NCBI GenBank assembly: GCA_950295325.1
Contig: OX485804.1
Span: 45,384,001-45,448,000 of the forward strand
Direction: 5' to 3'
Source of the DNA: Polytrichum commune
Lineage: Eukaryota > Streptophyta > Polytrichopsida > Polytrichales > Polytrichaceae
DNA: 64,000 nucleotides
The notes beneath the pieces were generated by a model. It did not search any database, was not told where the DNA came from, and saw only the letters and a program-made list of their open reading frames with translations. A program made the position numbers and the translations under genes. Shown here one piece after another: positions 3,803 to 58,714 of the stretch (the first letter of the stretch is position 1; every line of letters begins with the position of its first letter).

Positions 3803-3873
3803 GTAGGGTTTAGGGTTTGCGGTTAGGGTTTAGGGTTAGGGTTTGGGGGTAGGGTTTAGGGGTTTAGGGTTTG
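3803..3873 (+). repeat. Interstitial telomere-type repeats (TTTAGGG)
   Basis: About ten degenerate copies of the plant-type telomere unit TTTAGGG, with variants such as TTAGGG and TTTGGGGG, embedded in AT-rich DNA. Internal telomere arrays usually mark old break repair or chromosome fusion, or serve as telobox-type promoter motifs. No gene starts next to it, so repair or insertion is likelier here. Confidence 0.85.
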
Positions 3874-5379: not shown

Positions 5380-5468
5380 GTGAGTTATATACGTATACAT
5401 ATATATACACGTATTCATATATATACGTATACATATATGTACGGACAGGGGATCCCAAAACCATCACA

Positions 5469-6051
5469 TTTACGAACGCTCGTTCGTAAATGGACATACA
5501 CTGTATACCGAACCTCCATTTACGAACGTGCGTTCGTAAATACGCACTCCACGTTCTTTGAAATGATCTATATTTACGAACGCACGTTCGTAAATATACT
5601 CAAAATATCGCTTAGATGGAACCTTAACTTTAATATGAACCTCTACGAATATCTAAAGAACAAATATAAATTTGCGAACACCAATAAAACAACTCACATG
5701 TACTTACGAAAGATAAATCAACCAAATGTCCGAAAAGATAGACCAAATGGACATACTTACGAACGCACGTTCGTAAACAAAACCAAATCTATAAAACCTA
5801 TATCTTTTACGAACGATCGTTCGTAAAAATAACCAAATATATTGCAAATACATTCATGACGAGTAGTCTCTTTGATCTTCATATCTTTTACGAACGCTCG
5901 TTCGTAAACTCAATACTAAAAATTTATATTATCTTGCAACCCCTCATTTACGAACGAACGTTCGTAAATATAATTACATCAATTGCAAAGACGCATTAAC
6001 ACTGCGTAGTATGTGGGATATGCATGTCATTTACGAACGTTCGTTCGTAAA
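5469..6051. repeat. Cluster of eight 22-bp palindromes in the 5' leader
   Basis: Copies at 5469-5490, 5519-5540, 5573-5594, 5756-5777, 5806-5827, 5887-5908, 5947-5968 and 6030-6051. Each has arm TTTACGAACG, a free central dinucleotide (CT, TG, CA, CA, AT, CT, AA, TT in order) and arm CGTTCGTAAA; only the copy at 5756 departs, with C for the first T. Start-to-start spacing is mostly 50-83 bases. Degenerate half sites lie near 5671 and 5703. All eight sit in the presumed leader intron or immediate upstream region of the gene starting at 6080. Confidence 0.95.
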
Positions 6052-6079
6052 GTCACTAATTGTTTATATTCTGTTGCAG

Positions 6080-9000
6080 ATGGCAAGATCAAGCAGAAGC
6101 GCCATTGAGATGTTCGCGGTGAAGGTCGATGGCCTCCCAGAGTCCGTGTTAGACGATAACGGCAACGACAACTATGTCCCCAAGGAAGACTTCATGGGGG
6201 AGTGGACGGCACTGCCAGAGAAGATCGGGGACGGCCTTTTCTGCATGCGCTTCACCTACGAGCTGGAGACCAGAGTGGACCAGCCTGAACAGTGGGTTCA
6301 AATGAAGACGTGGGAGATAGAGTCCATAGAGGCCCAGGGGGAGTATGTAATTCTGGACATGAAGAACAAGAAGGATCATATCAACCTCTTGTTGCATTTC
6401 CAGAAACATACCTTCTCCTACCAATACGCCACCAATAACGTAGTGGAAGATGCCAAGCACTTCGACCTGGACGGCCTCTTCTCCAAATATGCGTTGAGCC
6501 CATATTGGACGACAAAGAAATTGACCGCCCTTGCATTGAACATCTCCAAATACAACAGTGTGGTCACTGAGGCAAACAAGAAGAAGAAGAGCCCCAGGAA
6601 ACCATCCACATTAGGGGCAGGAGGATCTAGAAGTGCACCCAGGCCTGTGCCTTCCGCGAGCAGGGCGACGGAGGGCCCCAGTAGACACTCCACGCCATCG
6701 AAGAGGACAAGGGACGAGATGGAGAAATCGGGAGTAACAGAGACCGCGGAGGTGACCTCTTCTGTCGTAATGCCTACCCCCTTGAAAAAGGGTGAGAACC
6801 CTGACGCTGTGAAGGCCACGAGGATCCTTCGAGACTTCAACAACTACTCGAAGGATTGTTGGCCCATGGGACACCACTTCACATTCAACGTGGACTGCTT
6901 CAAGTGCAAGATGTCCCCCAACAAATGGGTGGTTCGCTCTCGCGAGAGCGGTGGTGTGAAGTGGCAGATCAATAATCTAATGAACAATGTCAAGTGGGAC
7001 AGGCAGACCGTCTGTGTCATGCCGAAGGGGCTGACATCCCGTCCGACGGAGAAGGACTGGCCACGGATCCAGAATGGAGAGTTCTGGATCATAGACGGAC
7101 AACACAGCTTGGAGGCGTCCCAGATAATCCTCAAGGACGACAACTTCCAGCATGAGCTGAAGGAGGACTTGCGCTACTGGAAGGCGTTCTTGGTGTGGTC
7201 GGACGATTGGGACAAGCTGCGGAAGATATCCACCTTCCTCAACTCCGGCAACAAGATCAAGGCCTTCGAGGCATCGTGGGCAGCCAACATAGTGGCTGCA
7301 AGGGACGTCTGGGTCGCCCACGGGTGCCCCCCTAAAGAAAGGGAGAACGCGAAGACGCCGTCTCCACAATGGAAGGTGAGTTTACGAACGAACGTTCGTA
7401 AATATCTTTGACATTCAAATTTTCAAGTTCTTTGACATTCAAATTTACGAACGTGCGTTCGTATTTTGTGCGTTACTGATGCCTTTCTTGCTGCAGGCAT
7501 TCTGCGACGCAATGGTGGACAAGTTCTCCTCCATCGACATGAAGTCTACAACAACCAAATTTGTCCTGGAGCTCAAGGGTGAGCTCCGCCTCATCTGTTG
7601 CAACAGGGACACTTGGGAGTTGTGGACACAATTTTTTGATGCGCACAGCTCGGGCGATTTGGTCAACCCCAACACCGAGGAGAAATACAGCGCTGAGAAG
7701 ACTGGGGAGGCCCCTCCAGTACTGAGGGAGTTCTTCAGGTCCCTTCAAGGGTTAACAGAGTCCGAGTTGCAGAGGTGCGCGGTGCATCTTCTTGGGAACA
7801 CAGTGGGAAGAACCATCCCATACCCGAAGATATTTTTGAAGAGGCCAAGACACAAGCCCGGCACGTATTCCATCAAGGAATGGTGCGAACACCGCAAGCT
7901 GAAGACTGCTGCAATGAGGGAGTTGAACGGCCTAATACCGGAGTACGCACTCATCTTAGCCGACAGAGACGTTAATTGGGCCAGTTGGAAGATGTTCAAG
8001 GTCAACTACAACATCTCCGGAGCCTCAATGCGTTGTCTTGTCAAGGAGCACGCCTCCATTTTGAAGCAGAAGGGGAACAAGAGGACAAAGAAAACCGAGA
8101 CGGATCCCCAGGAGGTGGAGCAATACAGAAGCTTTTTGGCGCGGAAGAGGTTGGCCACATTCGGAGTGGCCAGATTTTGTTTGGTGACAACCGGAGTGGA
8201 GAGGATCACATTTTCCAAGTGGGACCGGACCATGAACAGGGCCGAGGTGAGGGAGGATCGACGGGGGTGCCCATTTGCCCTGATCGATTTCAGGGGGATC
8301 CCCGGTGCGTCGAGGCAGGGGGGGAAGGACATGCCTTTTTACAACCCCTTCATGGCCAAGTTCAAGGAGCATAAGTCGCCGGACATGAGGGAGCCTCACG
8401 TTTGGCTGTGGATAGTGGAGCAGGAGAAGCTGTCTGTCGTCACCGACCTGTACGAGAAGACGATCAAATTCGAGTACAACATCTTCCACAGCACTTACGT
8501 GCCCGCCAAGACGGAAGGGATCGTGGCCATTAACGAGGCCAGGGGAAACAAACAGGTGGGGGCGGTCAGCCTCGTCTTCTTGACGTACAACGCGCTTCGG
8601 AATGGGCGAGCCCCTGTTAGGGCGAATACTACGTTCAAGAAGATCTACAACATCCCCCATCCCCCTTCCAAGGATCTGCTGCAGGAGACCTTGTACACTG
8701 TCTTCCCGGCGATGGAACTCAGGTTGGAGTTCTACGTCTCCGTTTTGCAGAGCGTGGCAATAAGCGGAGAGACCGTGTACAACGTTTGTGGAGGCAACAA
8801 GTTCATGTACGCTGCGATGGTAAGCTCTCCAACTAATATTTACGAACGCTCGTTCGTAAAGTTCACCTCAACTTGTCTTGGGTTTTGATGACATTGTTTC
8901 TCGTCGTTGATGTTTACGAACGCACGTTCGTATATTCTAACGTATTTGCTTGGATCTCAGATGCTGGGGCTGGTCGTCAATAGCTTCATTGAAGCCATTG

Positions 9001-10579
9001 ACGAGGAGGACTTCCACGTGCACAGGGCGAAGGCCTCCACGATGGACCTGGAGGACATGTCCCTCCCGAGGACGGACATCAACATGCCCGTCGACGAGGG
9101 CATGCCCGCCATGGAGACGGACGACGACGAGCCCGCGCCCTCCTACAACGTCGAGGCGATCCTCCGATCCTTGGACGTCACGCCTCTGCGAATTTTGGGG
9201 CCGTCGGGAAACCCATCCGACGTGCAGGGGACTCCGGGTGGATACACGGGGTCGTCCGCGGGGACAACCCAAGATGTCCTCCCCGCGCGAACGTCTGGGG
9301 CGGATGCATTCGGCACTCCCGAGGGATGCTCGACATCGGTGTTGCCCAGGCCAGTCGTGGTTCCCAAGATGGAGAACCTCGACCTTCTGGACCAACGCTC
9401 CCGCCCGTCGTTGGACCATTTCCGCAACACTAGGCGGAAGATGAAGAAGACCCCCTACGTAGAGCTGCCTCCGGGGGCAATCATCGAGGTCTCCGACGAG
9501 GACGAGGGAGATATGGAGATAATGGTCGAGCTGGGGGTCGACTTCGACAAGAACAAGCGGGTCAAGGAGGAGGCCCTCTCCGTCGCTGAGCTTAACGCCA
9601 AGCTTGAGCAGAAGATGAAGGAGGACATGGCGAAGGCTGCTGAGGAGAATGCGAAGAAGATGAGAGCAATTCAGGAGGAGCTAAGGCAATCCAACGAGAA
9701 AACGGACGCCATCCTCGCCATGCTCAACAAGATGCAGAGCTTCTCGGCACCCCCCCCAGCCGGCTTACCCCTTCCTTGGAGGATACCCATCGCAATACCC
9801 CCCGCCAGGCCAGTACCCCCCGCAGGGCCATTTCCCAGGAGGACCATCACACCACTTCGCGCCCCACCCTACGCCTGTTGGGACTCCTCCGCCCCCAGAA
9901 GTTCCCTCGGCCACCTCCCACGATGCTGTCGCGGCGGCCATCCAGGAGGACGAAGATTTACGAACGCGCGTTCGTGAATCTTCAGGTCCTGCAACCCTCA
10001 CCCCTCCCTCTTCAAAGGTAGGACTGCACTCAGACACCGACACAACATCTTTCACCGTCGTCCCCAGGGTAGTAGACAGACAGGGCGATGACTCTGCACG
10101 ACACACTAACATGGTCATTGTGGAGGACACGCAGGGGAGCCCCAATGACGCAACAGGAGAGCAGGGGATGGACGTGGAAGAGACACCTGCCGCGTGGATG
10201 GAGGATGTCCGGATGGACGCGCTCGACCTGGGCGCCGAGGATGACAACGTGCTGCGCATCCAGCAGACACATGCCTCTCAGTCGGAGCGTGAGGCCGACT
10301 CCATGGAAATGGAGGCGGCTGCGGCTGTGGAGGTTACGAACGCGCGTTCGTTAATCGTTGAGGAGGGACTTGCTGCTCGGTCCAGCGCCGCTTCCCCTCC
10401 CCCCGATGACGAGGTAAATCTCCTCTGAGAATACCATTTTTTGCGAACGCGCGTTCGTAACCTCACTAACATCGCGGTGTTTTTCTCTTCATCGACACCC
10501 CCTGGCCCACGCGAACCCTCTTCAGCGACCCCCCTTATGGGCAACCAGTTTTGTAGGACACGGCATCATTTTGCCTTAG
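6080..10579 (+). CDS. ParB/DGQHR-like plus methyltransferase-like multi-domain protein, palindrome-bearing gene
   Basis: Exons by splice sites and frame: 6080-7375, 7497-8819, 8961-10413, and possibly 10526-10579 (stop TAG, AATAAA at 10588). All junctions are phase 0. The start ATG directly follows an acceptor (TTGCAG). Exon 1 (residues 1-432) has a basic linker near residue 170-180 and a ParB/DndB-like core with IIDGQHS at about 337-343, followed by FLNSGNKIKAF. Exon 2 (433-873) looks like a decayed beta-type amino-methyltransferase: IDFRGIPG near 695 where DPPY would be, then a WLWIVEQ strand, then GETVYNVCGGNKFMYAAM at its end where the cofactor glycine loop would be. Exon 3 has an acidic, SUMO-binding-like IIEVSDEDE near 1047 and a coiled coil near 1077-1137, then a proline/tyrosine-rich and acidic tail reached only by a one-base frame change near 9750-9757. 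Domain calls are inference from motifs; function is unknown. Confidence 0.6.
7381..7465. repeat. Two palindromes inside intron 7376-7496
   Basis: Copies at 7381-7402 (centre AA, perfect arms) and 7444-7465 (centre TG, right arm ending TATT instead of TAAA). The first begins five bases after the GTGAG donor; the second ends 31 bases before the CAG acceptor. The 121-base intron is almost entirely these two palindromes plus a duplicated TTCTTTGACATTCAAA segment. Confidence 0.95.
8839..8934. repeat. Two palindromes inside intron 8820-8960
   Basis: Copies at 8839-8860 (centre CT, perfect arms) and 8913-8934 (centre CA, right arm ending TATA). The layout repeats that of the previous intron: a perfect copy near the donor and a copy with a damaged right end 26 bases before the acceptor. 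This parallel suggests the introns share an origin or a constraint. Confidence 0.95.
9957..9978. repeat. Palindrome within coding sequence
   Basis: Arm TTTACGAACG, centre CG, arm CGTTCGTGAA. In the proline-rich frame it is read through as LRTRVRE; in the frame of the upstream exon its altered right arm supplies a TGA stop at 9975-9977. Confidence 0.9.
10333..10461. repeat. Two palindromes, one in coding sequence and one in the next intron
   Basis: 10333-10354 (GTTACGAACG, centre CG, CGTTCGTTAA) is read through in frame as VTNARSLI. 10440-10461 (TTTGCGAACG, centre CG, CGTTCGTAAC) lies 26 bases after the putative donor at 10414. Both have mutated outer ends and intact cores. Confidence 0.9.
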
Positions 10580-10741
10580 GAAAATGTAATAAACTTTCAT
10601 GTGAGAAATGTAAATACTCAACGGATTAATATATGGGCCCATGTTATCTGCATCGCATTGCTTCAAATTTTGTGCCCTCGACTCCTTCTCGTATATTGTG
10701 GATGTTGATGCGATTATGTTCATTCTTGTGTATCCACCTCA

Positions 10742-10854
10742 TTCACGAACGCTCGTTCGTGAAAGGGTGCAACCCCGTGTCCACCTCCTTCACGAACGAC
10801 CGCTCGTAAATGCACCGCCCCCGCAGCCTTCATTCACGAACGGTCGTTCGCAAG
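10742..10854. repeat. Three palindromes between the ParB-like and FCP1-like frames
   Basis: 10742-10763 (TTCACGAACG, CT, CGTTCGTGAA), 10789-10810 (TTCACGAACG, AC, CGCTCGTAAA) and 10833-10854 (TTCACGAACG, GT, CGTTCGCAAG). All three share the C at position 3 of the left arm; the first also has the matching G on the right, so symmetry is kept. Start-to-start spacing is 47 and 44 bases. They fall in a possible 574-base intron (10414-10987). Confidence 0.9.
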
Positions 10855-10987
10855 TGTGCCCTTGTGCACATTTTCCTTGCACTCTCCTCACTTCCTCGTC
10901 TTTTCCCATAATGCATCGTCTTCATTTTCTACGCAAAAATTTCATTTTTGGATCATAGCATTAAACTAGTCGCGTTGTTCATCACAG

Positions 10988-11755
10988 GACCCCCCGGAGA
11001 TAGGTCGCAACCCCTCGACCAGTGGACCTCACATTTGGAACAAACCTTTCATAGTTTTTGACCTCAATGGGGTCTTGTGTCACACCCAACACATCCCCAG
11101 GGTCCCCACGCGTCCCTTCAGTCACCCCGACGAAAGGGACTATGACGGCGAGCTCGACACCCTCATAAACCGCAAGGTTGTCCGCGCCCGTCCCGGCTTG
11201 CGGGACTTCCTTCGCGAGGTGGTCGAGTTCGCACACGTCGTTGTGTGGAGCTCCATGGTCATGGAGAACACGAAGCCCATCGTGGATTTCTTGTTCCGTG
11301 ATCTCCCGAGCCCTTGCCTCGTCCTCGGCCAAGAGGACTGCGACGAGCTGCTCGACAAGAAAGGCTGACCGGTGCCCAAGTTTGGCGGTCGAGGCGGAGG
11401 ACAACAGTTCCTCAAGGTCCTCCGCTCTAGACTCTGGCGAGGCGTCCCCCGGCTGCAGGGGACACCCCACGGGTGGTGGCCGACTCCTGAGAACACCCTC
11501 CTCATCGACGACAGCCCCACCAAGAGCGTCTTGAACCCCCCGGGCAACGTCATCTTCCCGGACACATGGACCGGCGATAGGCAAGACACATTTTTGGTCG
11601 ATAGGCTAGCCCCCTACCTTAGAAGGCTCGTGCTCCACGCCGATAGCATCCCATTTTTTGTTAGGTCCAACCCCTTCGGCAATGCGGCACTAAGCCCCCG
11701 CGATAATGTATATAAGAGCATCATGAGGCTCACCAAATTCAATAAATTGATTTGA
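10988..11755 (+). pseudogene. FCP1-like (NIF/HAD) phosphatase domain, one in-frame stop
   Basis: A single 256-codon frame, open from the acceptor-like CACAG at 10987 to TGA at 11753-11755, interrupted only by TGA at 11366-11368. HAD motifs of the FCP1/SCP family are visible: motif I FIVFDLNGVLCHT (nucleophile Asp at 11060, second Asp of DxDx replaced by Asn), motif II VVVWSSM, and motif IV LLIDDSP near 11502. Families of this kind dephosphorylate proteins such as the RNA polymerase II tail; the Asn replacement makes activity doubtful. The internal TGA lies where CGA would keep the frame, so deamination is a simple explanation. The first codon is in phase with the exon ending at 10413, so this may be the 3' part of the ParB-like gene. 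AATAAA lies near 11740. Confidence 0.65.
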
Positions 11756-11876: not shown

Positions 11877-11957
11877 GCCTCCTTAGTCTGCCCCCATATG
11901 TGACGCCCCGGTACTCGACGGCCCTTCCCGTCCCATCTCGCCCCCTGGCTCCCCTTC

Positions 11958-11971
11958 CCGTGACGTCACGG
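11958..11971. promoter_or_regulatory. TGACGTCA-core palindrome (bZIP-type site)
   Basis: CCGTGACGTCACGG, a perfect 14-base palindrome containing the TGACGTCA core bound by bZIP factors of the TGA/CREB type. It lies nine bases before the ATG at 11980, so it would be in the leader or core promoter of that gene. It is unrelated to the 22-bp palindromes. Confidence 0.5.
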
Positions 11972-11979
11972 ACTTCCAA

Positions 11980-12857
11980 ATGCCATCCCTCTACCAGTTC
12001 TCGGCGGTGGACGCGGCCTCAGCAGTGGATTACTCCCGCGACGTTGGCATCGACGACGGCGTCGTCAACAGCCCGCCCCCCGCACTTGTCGCCCGCGCCT
12101 ACGCCCCGTCGCCCTCCCCCTTCTCCAAGGAGAAACGGATGCTCGTTCGTTTGGGGCACCTCTCGCCCTCTAAGGACGACGCCGTCGCTCGTCGTGGGCC
12201 GAGCCGGCGTCTCCGCATGGACTTTGCCCCCGCCGACTCCGTTCCTCCCCCCGCAACGTCCTCCGCGATCGTGGGCCCTCCAGGCCTCGACTCCCCCCCG
12301 CCATCCAACAATGCAATAGTTCCATCGGCTCCGGATGCTCCCGTCGACGCCCCCCTCGTTCCCACCGTTCTCCGCATGGACGTCCCCAAAGCCAAGGTGC
12401 CCTCCTCACCCCTAAACCCCTTTCCCGCTTTTGCTTTCCTTGTCTTCCGTGTGCGTGTCGTTCTCTTTACGAGCGCCCATCCCAAACCGCCCTCATTATT
12501 TTCCCCACTCCATTCCTATTCTTATCTTCCTATGACGTTGTTTTGCAGGTGGCTACCCGCTCGCTTGGTGCCCAGCCCTCCTCCACGTCCTCCTTGGATA
12601 GGCACGCCCTCAAGGGCGCATCTTCCGAGTCCGATCGTTGTCTGGCCCTCCGGAGAAGCGCAAGACATTCCCTTTCGCAAACGCCCTCGCATTCTACTTA
12701 TAATACCACCTCGTACAATTCGGGAGCGCGTCCTGAAACATGCAAGAACGACACATATTCCTGTCCAGGCAACACACAAGGATACAGTCGTGGGCCTGAG
12801 ATTTTTAGAGCCATGGAGGCCGCCAAAAAAAAGGACTTAGCCGCAAAAAAAAAATAG
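11980..12857 (+). CDS. Small proline/serine-rich protein of the GC-rich island, unknown function
   Basis: Proposed exons 11980-12396 and 12549-12857 (stop TAG). The intron starts GTGCCC and ends TTTTGCAG; both sides are phase 0, giving 241 residues. The N-terminal part is rich in Pro, Ala, Ser and Asp, the C-terminal part in Ser, Arg and Lys, ending in a lysine-rich tail (AAKKKDLAAKKK). No domain is recognised. The intron contains a degenerate left half-palindrome (TTTACGAGCG, 12466) and exon 1 a right half (GCTCGTTCGTTT, 12141-12152), which ties it weakly to the palindrome system. A second frame stays open across exon 2, so the exact frame is not certain. Confidence 0.4.
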
Positions 12858-13254: not shown

Positions 13255-14307
13255 GTGTTAAGGATGATTGGAGATGTATACGGCATAGGGGTGAGTACAA
13301 CTTCAGAAATTGTAAGTGAATGTTGTGAGGCTATTAGAATTAAGCTACGACCATTGGTTTTTCCAAAACCAACACTTGCGAGGATGAAAGAGATAGCTTA
13401 TGGATTTGAAGCATTACATGACATTTCTTTTATATTAGGGGCAATAGATGGTAGTCATATACCCATTCTAGCACCATCCCATGATCCAGTAGCATATTAC
13501 AATAGAAAAAGGTTTTATTCATGTTTGCTTTAAGGAGTTGTAGATGCGGATTGTAAATTTTGGGACTATGATTTTGGATGGGCCGGGAGGATACATGATT
13601 GGACATTGTTTCAGAAATCTGAAATTGGGAAGAAAACTATGAGAGGTTTGTTTTTACCATTTAAGTTTATCGGAGACGCAGCCTATCCAATGCGGCCTTG
13701 GTTTTATTCACGTTTTAAAGATGAAAAAGACGGTTTACCTAGAAGGAAAGCCCATTGGAATTTTATCCAATCAAGCACCCGTATGGCCGTGGAAAGGGCA
13801 TTCGGTATTCTCAAAGGAAGATGGCGGATTTTACTGAAGAGAATTGATATGTCACTCCGGAATGTACCGGATATTGTTACCGCAGCCCTTTGTCTACAAA
13901 ATTTGTGTATAATTCAGAAGGATGAATTCAATATGGAATGGGCGGTAGATGCAGAGAAGGATTTGCAAGAAAAAGCTAATAGGTCTTTAGGGGATTTACA
14001 AAATATTAACATGTTTAAGGCCCTTGAAGCATCTCTGAGGAAAATGAAAGAATTGCAGAAGATAAATCCCCAAGCCAATGAGACACCATTCATTGAAATA
14101 AAGGAAGAGAAAGAAGTAGAAGGTGGAAATGATGAAGGTGAACAAACAAAGGTGGAATGGCAGAAAAAGATGAAGCAAATGTTGGCTGAAGCAACACGTG
14201 TGCATTTACTATTAGCAAAGAGTTTTTACAAGGCTCATTTAGCCCAAAAATCAACTCTTCGATTTGAGGACTGCAACTATGATACTACTAGTTCTGAATC
14301 AGAGTAG
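13255..14307 (+). pseudogene. HARBI1-like DDE transposase, truncated with one stop
   Basis: A 351-codon frame with a single internal TAA at 13531-13533. It aligns by eye with Harbinger nucleases: GVSTTSEIVSECCEAI helix, first Asp in FILGAIDGSHIPI, the YYNRKRFYS block, GWAGRIHDWTLF, second Asp in FIGDAAYPM, and catalytic Glu in MAVERAFGILKGRWRIL. The stop sits where the family has a Gln (CLL-stop-GVVDA), so CAA to TAA is the likely lesion. The N-terminal helical region found in full-length proteins (usually about 80-100 more residues) is missing. The acidic C-terminal tail runs to a TAG at 14305. The protein would have cut and pasted this element; it is now presumably inactive. Confidence 0.9.
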
Positions 14308-14316
14308 TAATTTGAA

Positions 14317-15541
14317 CTAGAGTTTGTTAATGAGGCGGTCAAATTGATAATCTACCCTCTCTAGTAGTTCATTTGTTTTTTCAAAAAATTTCATCAATCC
14401 AATGCTGGTTTCAACCATTTTCTCAAAAATTTCAATTGATCTTTCTTGAAAATTAGTCTTTGTCTTTGATATTGATGGAGGGGTGGATATTGGGGCACTG
14501 TCTACTTCTGGAGAAGAATTGGTTGGAAAATCTGCACTATTATTTGTTGTAGCTGATATATGCTTGAAAACTTGGCCGGCTTGATGGTACCATTGATCTA
14601 GAGCGTCGAAAAATTTACTCTCTTGCCGATTGTTGCCTGAAATACCATTTGCAAGTTTGTCTTCCTTGTAAGAAGAAAAAATTTGATTAAACTTCTTACG
14701 ACATGTTTGGGCTGTTCGGTTGAACTTGGAGAGCATAACCACCATCATTGCATGAAGCCGCACCCATGTATCAATTCCTGCACTCAAAACAGTGAAAAAA
14801 AAAACAATCAAAATTTGTATAAGAAAAAAACAATTTCAAGAACTGTGGGCAGAAGATGAATGGATTGGGAGGTATGAATAGGAAGGTGGTGGCCATGTGA
14901 TCACGAAGTGGGTTGGTGGGAAGAAGGCATCCTCCGTAAGGGGAAGGTACGAGGCTCAAATCCCAATGGCGACATTTGCCCGAATCCATATGGGGGGAAA
15001 GGGGGGCCTGGGGCCGGGACACGGGCGCGCGGCGAAGGCGAAGGCGAAGGCAAATGCCTTTAGGCCTCCAAATAGGCCTCACAAATCCTCAAAATTCCTC
15101 AAAATCTGAAATTTTCTTTGCAAAAAAACCTAGTTAGGTTTAGGGTTACTCACCTTGTTTTTTGCCGTTCCTTTCAAACTCGGGCTCCATCTCCCCCTTC
15201 AAAGCAATGAGTTGATACACCTCTGAATCTAGCCAATTTCGATTTCATTCTTCTCCTTCAACATTCACTTCAACTTGTGTAGGTTTCTTCTTTGGGGCAG
15301 TTTTCTTCCTTGGGGCAGCTCTTTTCTTTGAACTCCCTATTATCTTACAATCTTTCTCTTCTTCAACATTTCTCTCGTCAACTCTCTCAACCCTCTCAAC
15401 TTCCACTTCTTTCTCTCTTTCCTCTCTAGTAGGTGCTGAATATGGCCGAAATGCACCAAAAGAGTTCACACTCAAAACATTCTCTAACCCCATCCACCTC
15501 TCTTGGCTAAAGAACTCTCTGTTTTGAGATAATTGCTCCAT
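14317..15541 (-). pseudogene. Harbinger-associated Myb/SANT-like protein, one stop
   Basis: Exon 1 runs 15541 down to 15154 (donor GTGAGT), exon 2 runs 14777 down to 14317 (stop TAG). The phase-1 junction gives KKQ-G-IDTWVRL. The joined frame of 283 codons has one internal TGA at 15245-15247, where CGA would read Arg. The SANT/trihelix-like domain spans the junction: NWLDSEVYQLIALKGEME in exon 1, then TCRKKFNQIFSSYKEDK in exon 2. The N-terminal part is charged (EEREKEVEVERVERV) with lysine-rich APRKKTAPKKK. The C-terminal part is a predicted helix (FEKMVETSIGLMKFFEK). In PIF/Harbinger elements this partner helps carry the transposase to the nucleus and the transposon ends. Confidence 0.8.
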
Positions 15542-37422: not shown

Positions 37423-38129
37423 CATGTAAGATTTGAGTGTGTATGAACCACTTTAAGAGTGTTGTGTAGCAAAGTTTAAGTAATGTTATAGTTTTTTTGA
37501 TGAAAGTGGAAGCTGGAAGCACTTTGTCTTATGGGTGCTAGTGTTGTGTTTTGGATCTCCTCCACGTTCGTATTGAATGTTCCCGGTACTTGCCATTGAG
37601 CTCATGTTGTGGAGCCCATGTTGTGTTGTTCAAGAAGGGATGGGGACATTATGTTGTCCATTATTTTGAATTAGACACCAATATTTGAATGGTATAAGTT
37701 AAGGTAAGCGGGCCTTAAAGCAACACCCCGAGACACTTTGTGGAGTTTGGGGGATCTACCGAGTGAGAAAAAAATAGGAAAAAATAAGGGAGTTTTGCAA
37801 ATGTACATTGAATCTACACAAAAAGACAAAAGAAAATATTGGAGTTTATATGCAACAAAGGTGATGGTCAAAATTGACCTTTTACAATCACAAGGTGGGG
37901 TCCACTAATGTTGGATTGTTAGGCCACAAGTGAGAATGATAAAAAAGTTAACCTTATAAAGTTAACCTTATAGCGCATGAGAGTCTTGTGCTAAATGGGT
38001 ATACATCAAACACTATTTCTCACCCCATACAACTTATTATACGACCCATATTCTTCTACTCGTCACCAATCTATTGAGCCATATAAAATCCCAATCAATA
38101 CGTCATAAACTCCTCGAATCTAATAAAAC

Positions 38130-40580
38130 CACACAAACCATAGACAAATGCTACATGCAACCCCAACATTTCTATACCCCACCTCTTTTCACAAATCCAA
38201 GAATGCAACCCAAATAAAGATATTTTCACAAATTGCCCCACAATACAAATCCTACCCCCCTTGGCACAAATTCATGACAATACATGCCTCCTCCAAACAA
38301 CCGTCTCCAAGGAAAGACTATCGTGGCTATGGGAGAGATACACAGCTTACAACACCACACAATCCACAATCCTTTCCCCACCCCCACAATACTTTGCGTC
38401 ATAACTCTTGCTACTAGTTAATAAATACATAAAACCATTCCCACGCTGCAACCCAACTAATTATCCCACCTTCCACACCCTCCCCCCAACAATACTAGCC
38501 AACATAATCAACAATTTCCACCTAACACACTCCTACTTCTCTAGCCCACTCACATGCCCTACATCATTCACACAATTCCACCCCCCACAAGAACGAGATA
38601 AAATCTTTGGTTCACTCGGCCTAACCTTCTACACCAAATGGCAAGGAGATGGTTTAGCCCATATAGCATATCCAACAACCATCCCAAAAGCCATAAAATG
38701 GGCCCAGCTAGCAACCCAAACTAACCCCAACTCAAATACTATACTCATCGTCACACATGATGACTGGACCCATAACATCACTAACCCCCTCCATTAATCC
38801 CAATTATCACAATACCTCCTCTAACAATGAAATACACAACGACACCCACCCTCCTCAACTACTACCACAACAAAGAACCACTTCTTACCTCCATACTCCT
38901 CATATCTTACACTCCACACCAAGCCCACATAACCACATTCTTACACTCACTACTCAATGCATTGATCACCACAAGCAACACATACACCACCATACCTGCC
39001 CCCTACACACCTATATATATATATATATCACCAACATCCCCAAAATGTGGCACACCACCCCTTCACCACTGCCCCACCCCCAACACATACCACCCCACTA
39101 CCTCCAAAATCCATCAACATCCTCCCACTAAGATATACGCCCACACAATCATATCATTCGGATGGCTCATTCACACCACCTGATGGTCAAGGAGAAGGAA
39201 ACATAGCAGGCTCGAGCATATTCAATGCATCATAATTTATTAATATCGCCGCCAAACTCCTTGGCTACCTGAATATCCTAAGGGCCGAATCATACGCCTA
39301 GCTACTACTAGCAATAGAACATACCCAAAAAACTCATCATGGACACCTTCATCTTCACTGATAGCTTTAACAATATATACCTCTTACTAAATCACAGAAG
39401 ACACCACTCTTCCCAATATAGCCACCTAGACACCATCAAGGCCTCCACTCATAACATCATCATTAAAAATATTAGAGCACGCTCAAATATAGTTGGAAAT
39501 GTTGAAGCTGACAAGCTAGCTAAACAAGGAGCACTTGAACCAAGTATCATAACAACCCCTTTTCATCATATTGGCCACCAAATTCCCCAACCTCTATACA
39601 ACATAACGGCTTACTATGTAACCTCAAAAGCTACATTGAAACAGATTACAAAAGCGCTCTCATATCAAATGCAACAAACACAATACCAAACATTAAAAAA
39701 TGGCTAACCAATGAAAACATTCACCCAAAATGGTCTAACCTTCTTTGGGGTGCACCTTGGATCCTAGATGCCCAACTCACACAAACCCTTAAATTCCGGT
39801 ATGGTGGATACCTAAAAAACGACCGTAGGAAACACATTCTCAAACAAAATATCCCACCATTTTGTAATATATGCCCACTCAAACAGAAGAAAAATTGCGT
39901 ACACCTCCTCTCATGTTGCACAAATAAACATATAAACATCCTCCACACTAGTTGACATAACAAAGCAGTCCGCGCAATAGCCAACACACTACTAGCCCAC
40001 CCTACCACAAGATGCTTCACACTCATAAACGCGGGAAATTTCAATGAACAAACATTAGGAAACACCGTACCATCATGACTCCTCCCTTGCTCTTGCTACC
40101 TCCCATGTTGTCAGTGCCTTGCATGATTCCGCCCCGATATATTGTACATCATTGGAGCAACACCTATAGGCAAAACCCCATTCTCACCAAACCCAAACCT
40201 AAAAGTCCAATTCTTTGAATTCACATACTGCAACGATAAATTCCCATTGGAAGCCACAACAAAAAAACTTGACAAATATGCCGTACTCCTCCCACTACTC
40301 AGCCAACAAAGGATGACAAGTCCTCCCACTTGTAATTATAATAGCTAGAATCCATGGCACTATTCATACTACAACCACCAAAAGCCTCACAAACCTTCAA
40401 GCCCTTACCAAAAAAATCACAAACTCATGGACACCCTCTCACAAATCTCCATCAAATAGTAAACACACATTATTCTCAACAACAAAAATCTTAAAAAAAC
40501 AGTCCCCAAACTCACTAGACTAATCCCCCCACCCACCTACATGCACACCCTATATATATCTACTAACAATAATTAACCCT
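38130..40580 (+). mobile_element. Decayed LINE-like retrotransposon remnant
   Basis: Protein-like text on the plus strand broken by many stops and shifts. An RNase H domain is visible at about 39165-39545: DGSFTPPDGQGE, RAESYA, FIFTDSFNN, and IRARSNIVGNVEADKLAKQG. After it come a Cys/His knuckle (CNICPLKQKKNCVHLLSC, 39860-39920) and an endonuclease-like tail (RPDILYIIG, FFEFTYCNDKFPLEA) near 40130-40290. Upstream, 38570-38800 has FGSLGLTFYTKWQGDGLAH followed by an alternating helix/strand text that could be a methyltransferase-like domain. I see no reverse transcriptase, so that part is deleted or beyond recognition. The plus strand is strikingly poor in G throughout. Non-functional. Confidence 0.65.
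39165..39707 (+). pseudogene. RNase H domain of the LINE-like remnant
   Basis: Reading in more than one frame gives the order of RNase HI active-site blocks: DGSF with the first Asp, RAESYA with the Glu, FTDSFNNI with the second Asp, and NIVGNVEADKLAKQGA with the last Asp in the family's typical GNE-AD-LAK context. Stops at about 39230 and 39300 break it. Confidence 0.7.
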
Positions 40581-58219: not shown

Positions 58220-58375
58220 TTTTACCTTCTACATACCATAAATTTTTCTTGTCAGTCTTTGAACAGACAGAAATTTAAAGCACATTGTGTAAAAAGCTTA
58301 TGAAACAACAACTTTTTGTCCTTGTCTTGCTTGTTTGCAGAATAAATCTCATTTCACCAGCCAAGGCTTAAGGAA

Positions 58376-58714
58376 ATGCATTTCCGGAATTTTGAGGAGT
58401 TTTGGCCATTCTATGTGAACCAACACACGAAAGTGACGACGCGAAGATGGCACTTCTGTGCGACAGGAAGCGCCACCTTGTTCTTTTTGGCTGCAATTGT
58501 AATAAAATGGTGGCTCTTATTCTTTGCTCCAATCTTTGGATACGGGCTTGCGTGGTACAGTCATTTCTTTATTGAAGGGAACACACCAGCCACGTTTGGA
58601 CATCCCGTGTGGTCCTTCATTTGCGACTACAAGATGTTTGCCCTCATGTTAACGGGCCGGATGGACCGTGAAATTAAACGGCTCGGGAAAAGGCCAATGC
58701 TACAGGTTTCTTAA
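58376..58714 (+). CDS. DUF962/Mpo1-like membrane protein (short plant type)
   Basis: A single-exon frame of 112 residues, the usual size of the short plant members of the family. MHFRNFEEFWPFYVNQH at the N-terminus is followed by TRRWHFCATGS, two adjacent hydrophobic segments (LFFLAAIVIKWWLLFF, about residues 34-52) and the conserved block AWYSHFFIEGNTPATFGHP, then WSFICDYKMFALMLTG. Conserved His residues in these blocks match those proposed to bind iron in yeast Mpo1, an ER dioxygenase of 2-hydroxy fatty acid alpha-oxidation. The plant role is not established. An acceptor-like TTGTTTGCAG at 58340 suggests a non-coding first exon upstream. A 27-base A run lies 58 bases after the stop. Confidence 0.85.
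   Translation: MHFRNFEEFWPFYVNQHTKVTTRRWHFCATGSATLFFLAAIVIKWWLLFFAPIFGYGLAWYSHFFIEGNTPATFGHPVWSFICDYKMFALMLTGRMDREIKRLGKRPMLQVS

Follow-up and report, generated by a model that had tools for sequence, protein, structure and literature searches.

Clade-specific palindromes in the introns of a eukaryotic gene family with predicted ParB/Srx-like and methyltransferase-like folds: candidate self-recognition sites

What, if anything, reads a 22-bp palindrome that is repeated 18 times in and around the coding exons of a single predicted gene? The window (the whole 64-kb stretch of DNA that was analysed) was searched with TTTACGAACGNNCGTTCGTAAA, allowing up to three mismatches. All 18 matches fell within 5469-10854, with none in the remainder of the 64 kb, and 100 shuffles gave no match; a chance origin of the array is excluded. 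An earlier note on this DNA had described 18 copies and no intact copy elsewhere in the 64 kb. The number was reproduced, and the second statement holds even at three mismatches, but only 9 copies are exact, with three carrying one mismatch, five carrying two and one carrying three. The changes in the imperfect half of the copies lie nearly all at the ends (1 deviation in 216 at the inner twelve positions vs. 15 in 144 at the outer eight). The core CGAACGNNCGTTCG was kept in 17 of the 18 copies and all of the CpGs were intact (72/72), while the centre dinucleotide was variable and the flanks, judged by eye, were unrelated to each other. The gene model below was built from splice signals read in the sequence, with no transcript.

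5380-6079, + strand: predicted leader intron, with a predicted GTGAGT donor and a TTGCAG acceptor read from the sequence
5469, 5519, 5573, 5756, 5806, 5887, 5947 and 6030: starts of the leader-intron palindromes (n = 8)
5469-10854, no strand assigned: array of 18 palindromes TTTACGAACG-NN-CGTTCGTAAA, from the sequence search
6080-7375, + strand: exon A (432 codons), a weak PH-like N-terminal region followed by a ParB/Srx-like fold
7376-7496, + strand: intron 1, phase 0, with palindromes at 7381-7402 and 7444-7465
7497-8819, + strand: exon B (441 codons), a helical region followed by a DNA N6/N4 methyltransferase-like fold
8820-8960, + strand: intron 2, phase 0, with palindromes at 8839-8860 and 8913-8934
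8961-10413, + strand: predicted exon C, a low-complexity/coiled-coil linker
9957-9978 and 10333-10354: exon C palindromes, in predicted coding sequence
10414-10987, + strand: predicted intron 3, with donor GAG/GTAAAT and acceptor CACAG/GAC (the slash marks the splice point) read from the sequence
10440-10461, 10742-10763, 10789-10810 and 10833-10854: intron 3 palindromes
10988-11755, + strand: predicted exon D, a NIF/FCP1-type HAD phosphatase-like domain

Eight copies are thus in the leader intron, two in intron 1, two in intron 2, two in exon C and four downstream, in agreement with the earlier counts (eight in the leader, eight in other introns and spacer, two coding). The four copies that had been placed in a spacer do exist, but most likely they lie in predicted intron 3. 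All 18 are inside the predicted transcript; none was found in the promoter or the 3' flank, nor upstream of the leader intron in the window search. Relative to the reading frame with which exon C ends, intron 3 is phase 0, as read from the splice signals; the three internal introns thus share this phase. The junction of exons C and D through intron 3, and with it the membership of exon D in the gene, is predicted. Eight consecutive C (9750-9757) interrupt the frame of exon C, and exon D has an in-frame TGA (11366-11368). Both defects may reflect decay of the window copy or errors in sequencing. Right after exon D there is a GC-rich open frame of 317 codons (11887-12837, + strand; CpG observed/expected 1.11), with no Pfam family at E 0.01, which may represent a separate gene or belong to the same element.

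Residues 267-395 (approximately) of exon A are predicted to adopt the ParB N-terminal fold of the ParB/Srx superfamily. No Pfam family matched exon A of the window, and the profile matches among 47 exon A members were all weak: PHROG 1033 in 16 (best 0.0013), DUF6551, which we take to be ParB-like, in nine (best 0.012) and TIGR03187 in one (E 0.5). ParB partition proteins carry the CTP-binding box GxRRxRA; the aligned position reads DGQHS here, each of the five columns being kept in at least 90% of the 47 rows. The earlier interpretation of the protein is partly supported: the predicted fold is ParB-like, and the box is not of the partition type. A DGQH motif at the equivalent place is shared with the DGQHR-type proteins of the ParB superfamily, DndB presumably among them, but the fifth residue is S and not R, and TIGR03187 is matched only as given above. 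Unlike the bacterial and plasmid systems ParB-parS, KorB-OB and Noc-NBS, the box and the sites belong to an intron-bearing gene, the sites are intronic, the fold is joined to a methyltransferase-like one and no partition partner is known.

Exon B is predicted to have the fold of beta-class DNA methyltransferases (residues 224-441, approximately), with Foldseek E values of 0.04-0.09 for the best five matches and an identity of 3-11% in the rows shown. The usual forms of these enzymes are a catalytic [DNS]PP[YFW], such as DPPY, and a SAM motif FxGxG. Neither was found in an alignment of 43 rows, three of them from clade 3 (clades are defined below): the place of motif IV reads DFRxxP, with D264, F265 and P269 invariant, and that of motif I reads G[STN]K, with K435 in at least 90% of the rows. 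By these motifs and by its low identity the family differs from the beta-class N6/N4 methyltransferases and the MTA1 group. Exon D matched PF03031 above the cut-off in both of its pieces (E 3.3e-9 and 6.3e-6), and the HAD-like domain is probably the C-terminal part of the family protein. HAD phosphatases have the catalytic motif DxDx(T/V); in a weak alignment with a CTD small phosphatase (E 0.64), the sequence DLNGVL of exon D stands opposite DLDETL and does not have this form. No DNA-reading head was identified in the family protein, and the domain searches found no recombinase domain.

These folds bear on the idea that some catalytically active family member uses the palindromes as substrates, cutting or methylating them or exchanging the exons that they flank as phase-0 cassettes. 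The shared phase of the three internal introns, each of which carries sites as the leader intron does, agrees with it, as do the 2-bp centre and the methyltransferase-like fold. We consider it unlikely nonetheless, given the DFR in place of DPPY at motif IV, the lysine where motif I usually has its last glycine, and the lack of a recombinase domain in the searches.

Three protein searches, in two of which scoring was confined to the 7993 and 7995 candidates with the most words in common, gave at least 107 distinct homologues, all named only 'hypothetical protein' and none with a precomputed Pfam domain. Assigned to whichever of three representatives gave the best BLASTP match, they formed clades of 49, 33 and 25 proteins. 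Many of the homologues are open reading frames running from an exon into an intron, so that intron DNA can be read from the peptides, and the intron-like read-through with splice signals indicates that the homologues are eukaryotic. The window locus would be one member of this eukaryotic family. Clade 1 tails contained LRTxVRK, YERxFV and FTNxRS, which are three frames of the window palindrome; FTDARP and LRPRGRK were found in clade 2, and VWVDRPK, FGSIDPN and LGRxTQT in clade 3. The palindromes of the homologues were therefore read from translations and not from DNA, in tails clipped with hand-made anchors that missed some. In P0002 (clade 2) exon A reads into exon B without intron 1; this gene may have lost the intron with its sites, or the record may be spliced. 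P0047 and P0050 end, by eye, in an apparently shifted frame.

An unbiased scan of all 7-base half-sites with spacers of 0-4 was run over the read-through tails. The half-site ACGAACG-NN was recovered in 31 of 43 clade 1 tails, ACGGACG-NN in nine of 20 clade 2 tails, with ACGGCCG in four, and TGGGTCG-NN in 13 of 21 clade 3 tails, while the best half-site reached 1-2 in the shuffle control (three shuffles per spacer and clade). Spacers 0 and 4 gave shadows of the same sites. Each clade palindrome is a half-site-NN followed by its reverse complement, and the centre is CG-NN-CG in all of them. The half-sites were labelled A (ACGAACG), B (ACGGACG), C (ACGGCCG), D (TGGGTCG) and E (TCGGTCG-type), and proteins with a tail of at least seven residues were typed. 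Type A fitted 29 of 35 in clade 1 (C, D and E none); B fitted nine and C four of 17 in clade 2 (D and E none). Single-frame peptides do not separate A from B, and 17 proteins of clade 1 were compatible with B as well, as were two of clade 2 with A. In clade 3, D fitted 12 and E three of 19 (one fitted both), and A, B and C none. The sites of seven proteins with unclipped tails, described below, are not part of the scan and typing counts. Six of 35, four of 17 and five of 19 tailed proteins in clades 1, 2 and 3, respectively, fitted no motif.

Each motif fitted 0-3 of 4200 shuffled tails. Across 43,941 residues outside the clipped tails, fits occurred in seven of 107 proteins, all of them in read-through tails past a missed donor; exons A and B thus hold no site, as far as peptides tell, and these two exons make up the sample of homologues, exon C with its two window sites being outside it. 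By eye, the unfitting tails of P0055, P0079, P0097, P0038 and P0007 look like relics of the clade palindrome with few changes. The TCGGTCG-type half-site was seen in three clade 3 proteins: in P0063 it is beside TGGGTCG in one intron, in P0028 the two types are in different introns, and the third is P0036. These three possibly represent an address switch under way.

Palindrome type was followed on trees of both exons, with E merged with D and with ambiguous, mixed and untyped proteins left out. Type changed three times on the exon A tree (47 rows), the minimum for four types, and four times on the exon B tree (43 rows); both were quick trees without bootstrap, and the program warned of long branches meeting. 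The three clades were recovered for exon A (SH-aLRT 94-100). For exon B clades 1 and 3 were recovered at 98-100; clade 2 was divided at an unresolved fork, with the two type C rows away from each other. P0002, P0005, P0006 and the window, the only carriers of both exons in full, keep their clade in both trees, a slight sign, from four sequences, against exon exchange. Site and protein appear to have diverged together, so each clade would address its own copies.

The position of the sites was compared in intron 1. A site lies right after the donor in 12 of 14 clade 1 tails (the window and 13 homologues; 11 of 13 in the homologues), its core 10-12 bases into the tail, counted from the last exon codon; one of the other two tails has a site further in and P0007 has a near-match. 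In clade 3 the other palindrome is found 14-15 bases in, in nine of 16 tails, as though a new address had replaced the old one at much the same spot. Residues were compared in ten of the 14 clade 1 tails, chosen because they are read in the frame of the near-donor site. Agreement was found in 28 of 297 pairs for the downstream residues and in five of 45 for the centre residue; inside the site it was 195 of 225, a value that is high partly by the choice of tails. Since downstream residues are rarely alike while the site is kept, the site persists in otherwise randomised introns. The palindromes could in principle be functionless short repeats, spread by copying and shared by descent, and the unrelated look of their flanks, which makes each copy an isolated 22-mer, agrees with such an origin. 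The persistence of the clade 1 intron 1 sites, the CpGs kept in every copy and the agreement of type with clade make it very improbable.

The location of the sites also bears on a role in RNA, in which the palindromes would form pre-mRNA hairpins that are bound by protein or affect splicing. All 18 copies are in the predicted transcript, and the near-donor sites of clades 1 and 3 (11/13 and 9/16 intron 1 tails) suit such a role. Pairing between the arms, however, was 92.7% of cells, the same as with shuffled 3' arms (92.7%; reached in 329 of 500), and a change on both sides was seen once among 15 distinct copies; the sample, 18 copies from a single gene, is small. Usual hairpin recognition would not leave the loop free and the stem fixed, as is the case here, and two copies are in predicted coding sequence. 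We regard a role in RNA as improbable. Arms that vary independently, with a fixed stem and a free centre, favour half-sites in duplex DNA over RNA hairpins: the palindromes would be double-stranded sites in which a pair of inverted half-sites flanks a 2-bp centre of free sequence.

We lean, on balance, towards an explanation in which the family protein, probably as a dimer, recognises the clade-specific sites inside its own genes, either keeping these loci unsilenced or regulating itself. Several observations count against it: no DNA-reading head was identified, the frame of the window copy is broken and interrupted by a stop, every site is in the predicted transcript, as would equally be expected of a role in RNA or splicing, and part of the tailed proteins fit no motif (6/35, 4/17 and 5/19). 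The preferred output would be to keep the family's own loci free of silencing, as VANC does for VANDAL; it is our first choice, a possible one that falls clearly short of an even chance. Autoregulation comes close behind, and the slight leaning expressed above covers self-recognition of either kind.

In the narrower form of this explanation, the protein would bind the intronic palindromes and repress or tune its own transcription, with no role in silencing or mobility. KorB-like ParB proteins repress at operators, and the confinement of the sites to the gene within the window, their palindromic, dimer-type build and the predicted ParB-like fold accord with autoregulation. It is doubtful as the sole function, the sites being spread over 5.4 kb, mostly intronic and absent upstream of the leader intron; a different site in each clade fits copies that address themselves better.

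Self-recognition with relief from silencing has a described counterpart. The VANC anti-silencing proteins bind motifs in the noncoding DNA, introns included, of the VANDAL elements that encode them, and they reduce CG methylation at those places (Hosaka et al. 2017, PMC5735166; PMC10398659). Other members of the VANC family have motifs of their own; YAGTATTAY and AGTTGTCC/AGTTGTAC are examples, 8-9 bases long and often in tandem repeats (PMC5735166, PMC10398659). The likeness is that family members differ in the short motif that recurs in the noncoding portions of each gene, introns among them, which in the present family was found from peptides. The differences are that the motifs here are palindromes of 20-22 bp in isolated copies and that the protein has predicted ParB-like and methyltransferase-like folds; methylation loss is shown for VANC, whereas binding, mobility and an effect on methylation are candidate properties of the palindrome family. 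The principle has precedents in VANC and ParB/parS, and the protein architecture with intron palindromes matches neither. No description of such a system was found among the matches listed in the literature searched, by title and the start of the abstract.

A bolder version is tentative and somewhat short of an even chance: in a family of chimeric genes that combine a ParB fold with a pseudo-methyltransferase, each lineage may have switched all of its introns to a new palindromic address read only by its own protein, which would keep its copies active and limit cross-talk, a eukaryotic counterpart of ParB/parS for epigenetic self-defence. Should binding be confirmed, the family would provide a natural eukaryotic set of proteins with matching DNA addresses of at least three specificities and reveal by what route such a family changes its address. 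It would also add sequence-specific DNA binders of a new class, perhaps usable as tools for anti-silencing at chosen loci.

CpG content was considered as a trace of methylation. The observed/expected ratio was 0.94 in introns without palindromes (1185 bases) and 0.82 in the gene, compared with 0.30-0.60 in eleven 4-kb blocks of 20-64 kb. The CpG level of the gene fits low methylation, in an indirect and ambiguous way. High CpG also occurs elsewhere in the window. Among the 1-kb blocks of the first 20 kb that lie outside the gene the ratio ranged from 0.42 to 1.10, with some at 0.74-1.10, and three of six other open reading frames had 0.71-0.85 vs. 0.69-0.96 for the exons here. GC3 was 0.71-0.82 here vs. 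0.31-0.56 in the six other frames, which were chosen by us, and 0.63 in the adjoining frame at 11887; high GC3 or recent arrival would explain the CpG level too.

No element ends and no terminal inverted repeats with duplicated flanks were found around the gene, so that mobility of the locus is at most a possibility. A TTTAGGG-like array (3804-3873) lies upstream of the gene and a short inverted CCCCTAAACCCC (12407-12421) downstream, possibly by chance. Further downstream, 13534-14304 (+ strand) encodes a DDE_Tnp_4 transposase (E 6.4e-20; Plant_tran 9.1e-6) and 14320-14835 (- strand) a Myb/SANT-like frame (E 2.7e-5, just under its cut-off); together they look like a Harbinger-type pair. The interval 38001-40000 has a strong GC skew (-0.548) and a frame at 39318-39704 that weakly resembles RNase H (E 0.0084, below the cut-off), and is perhaps a retroelement relic. 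At 58346-58711 (+ strand) there is an ordinary-looking gene for an Mpo1-like protein (E 1.1e-30).
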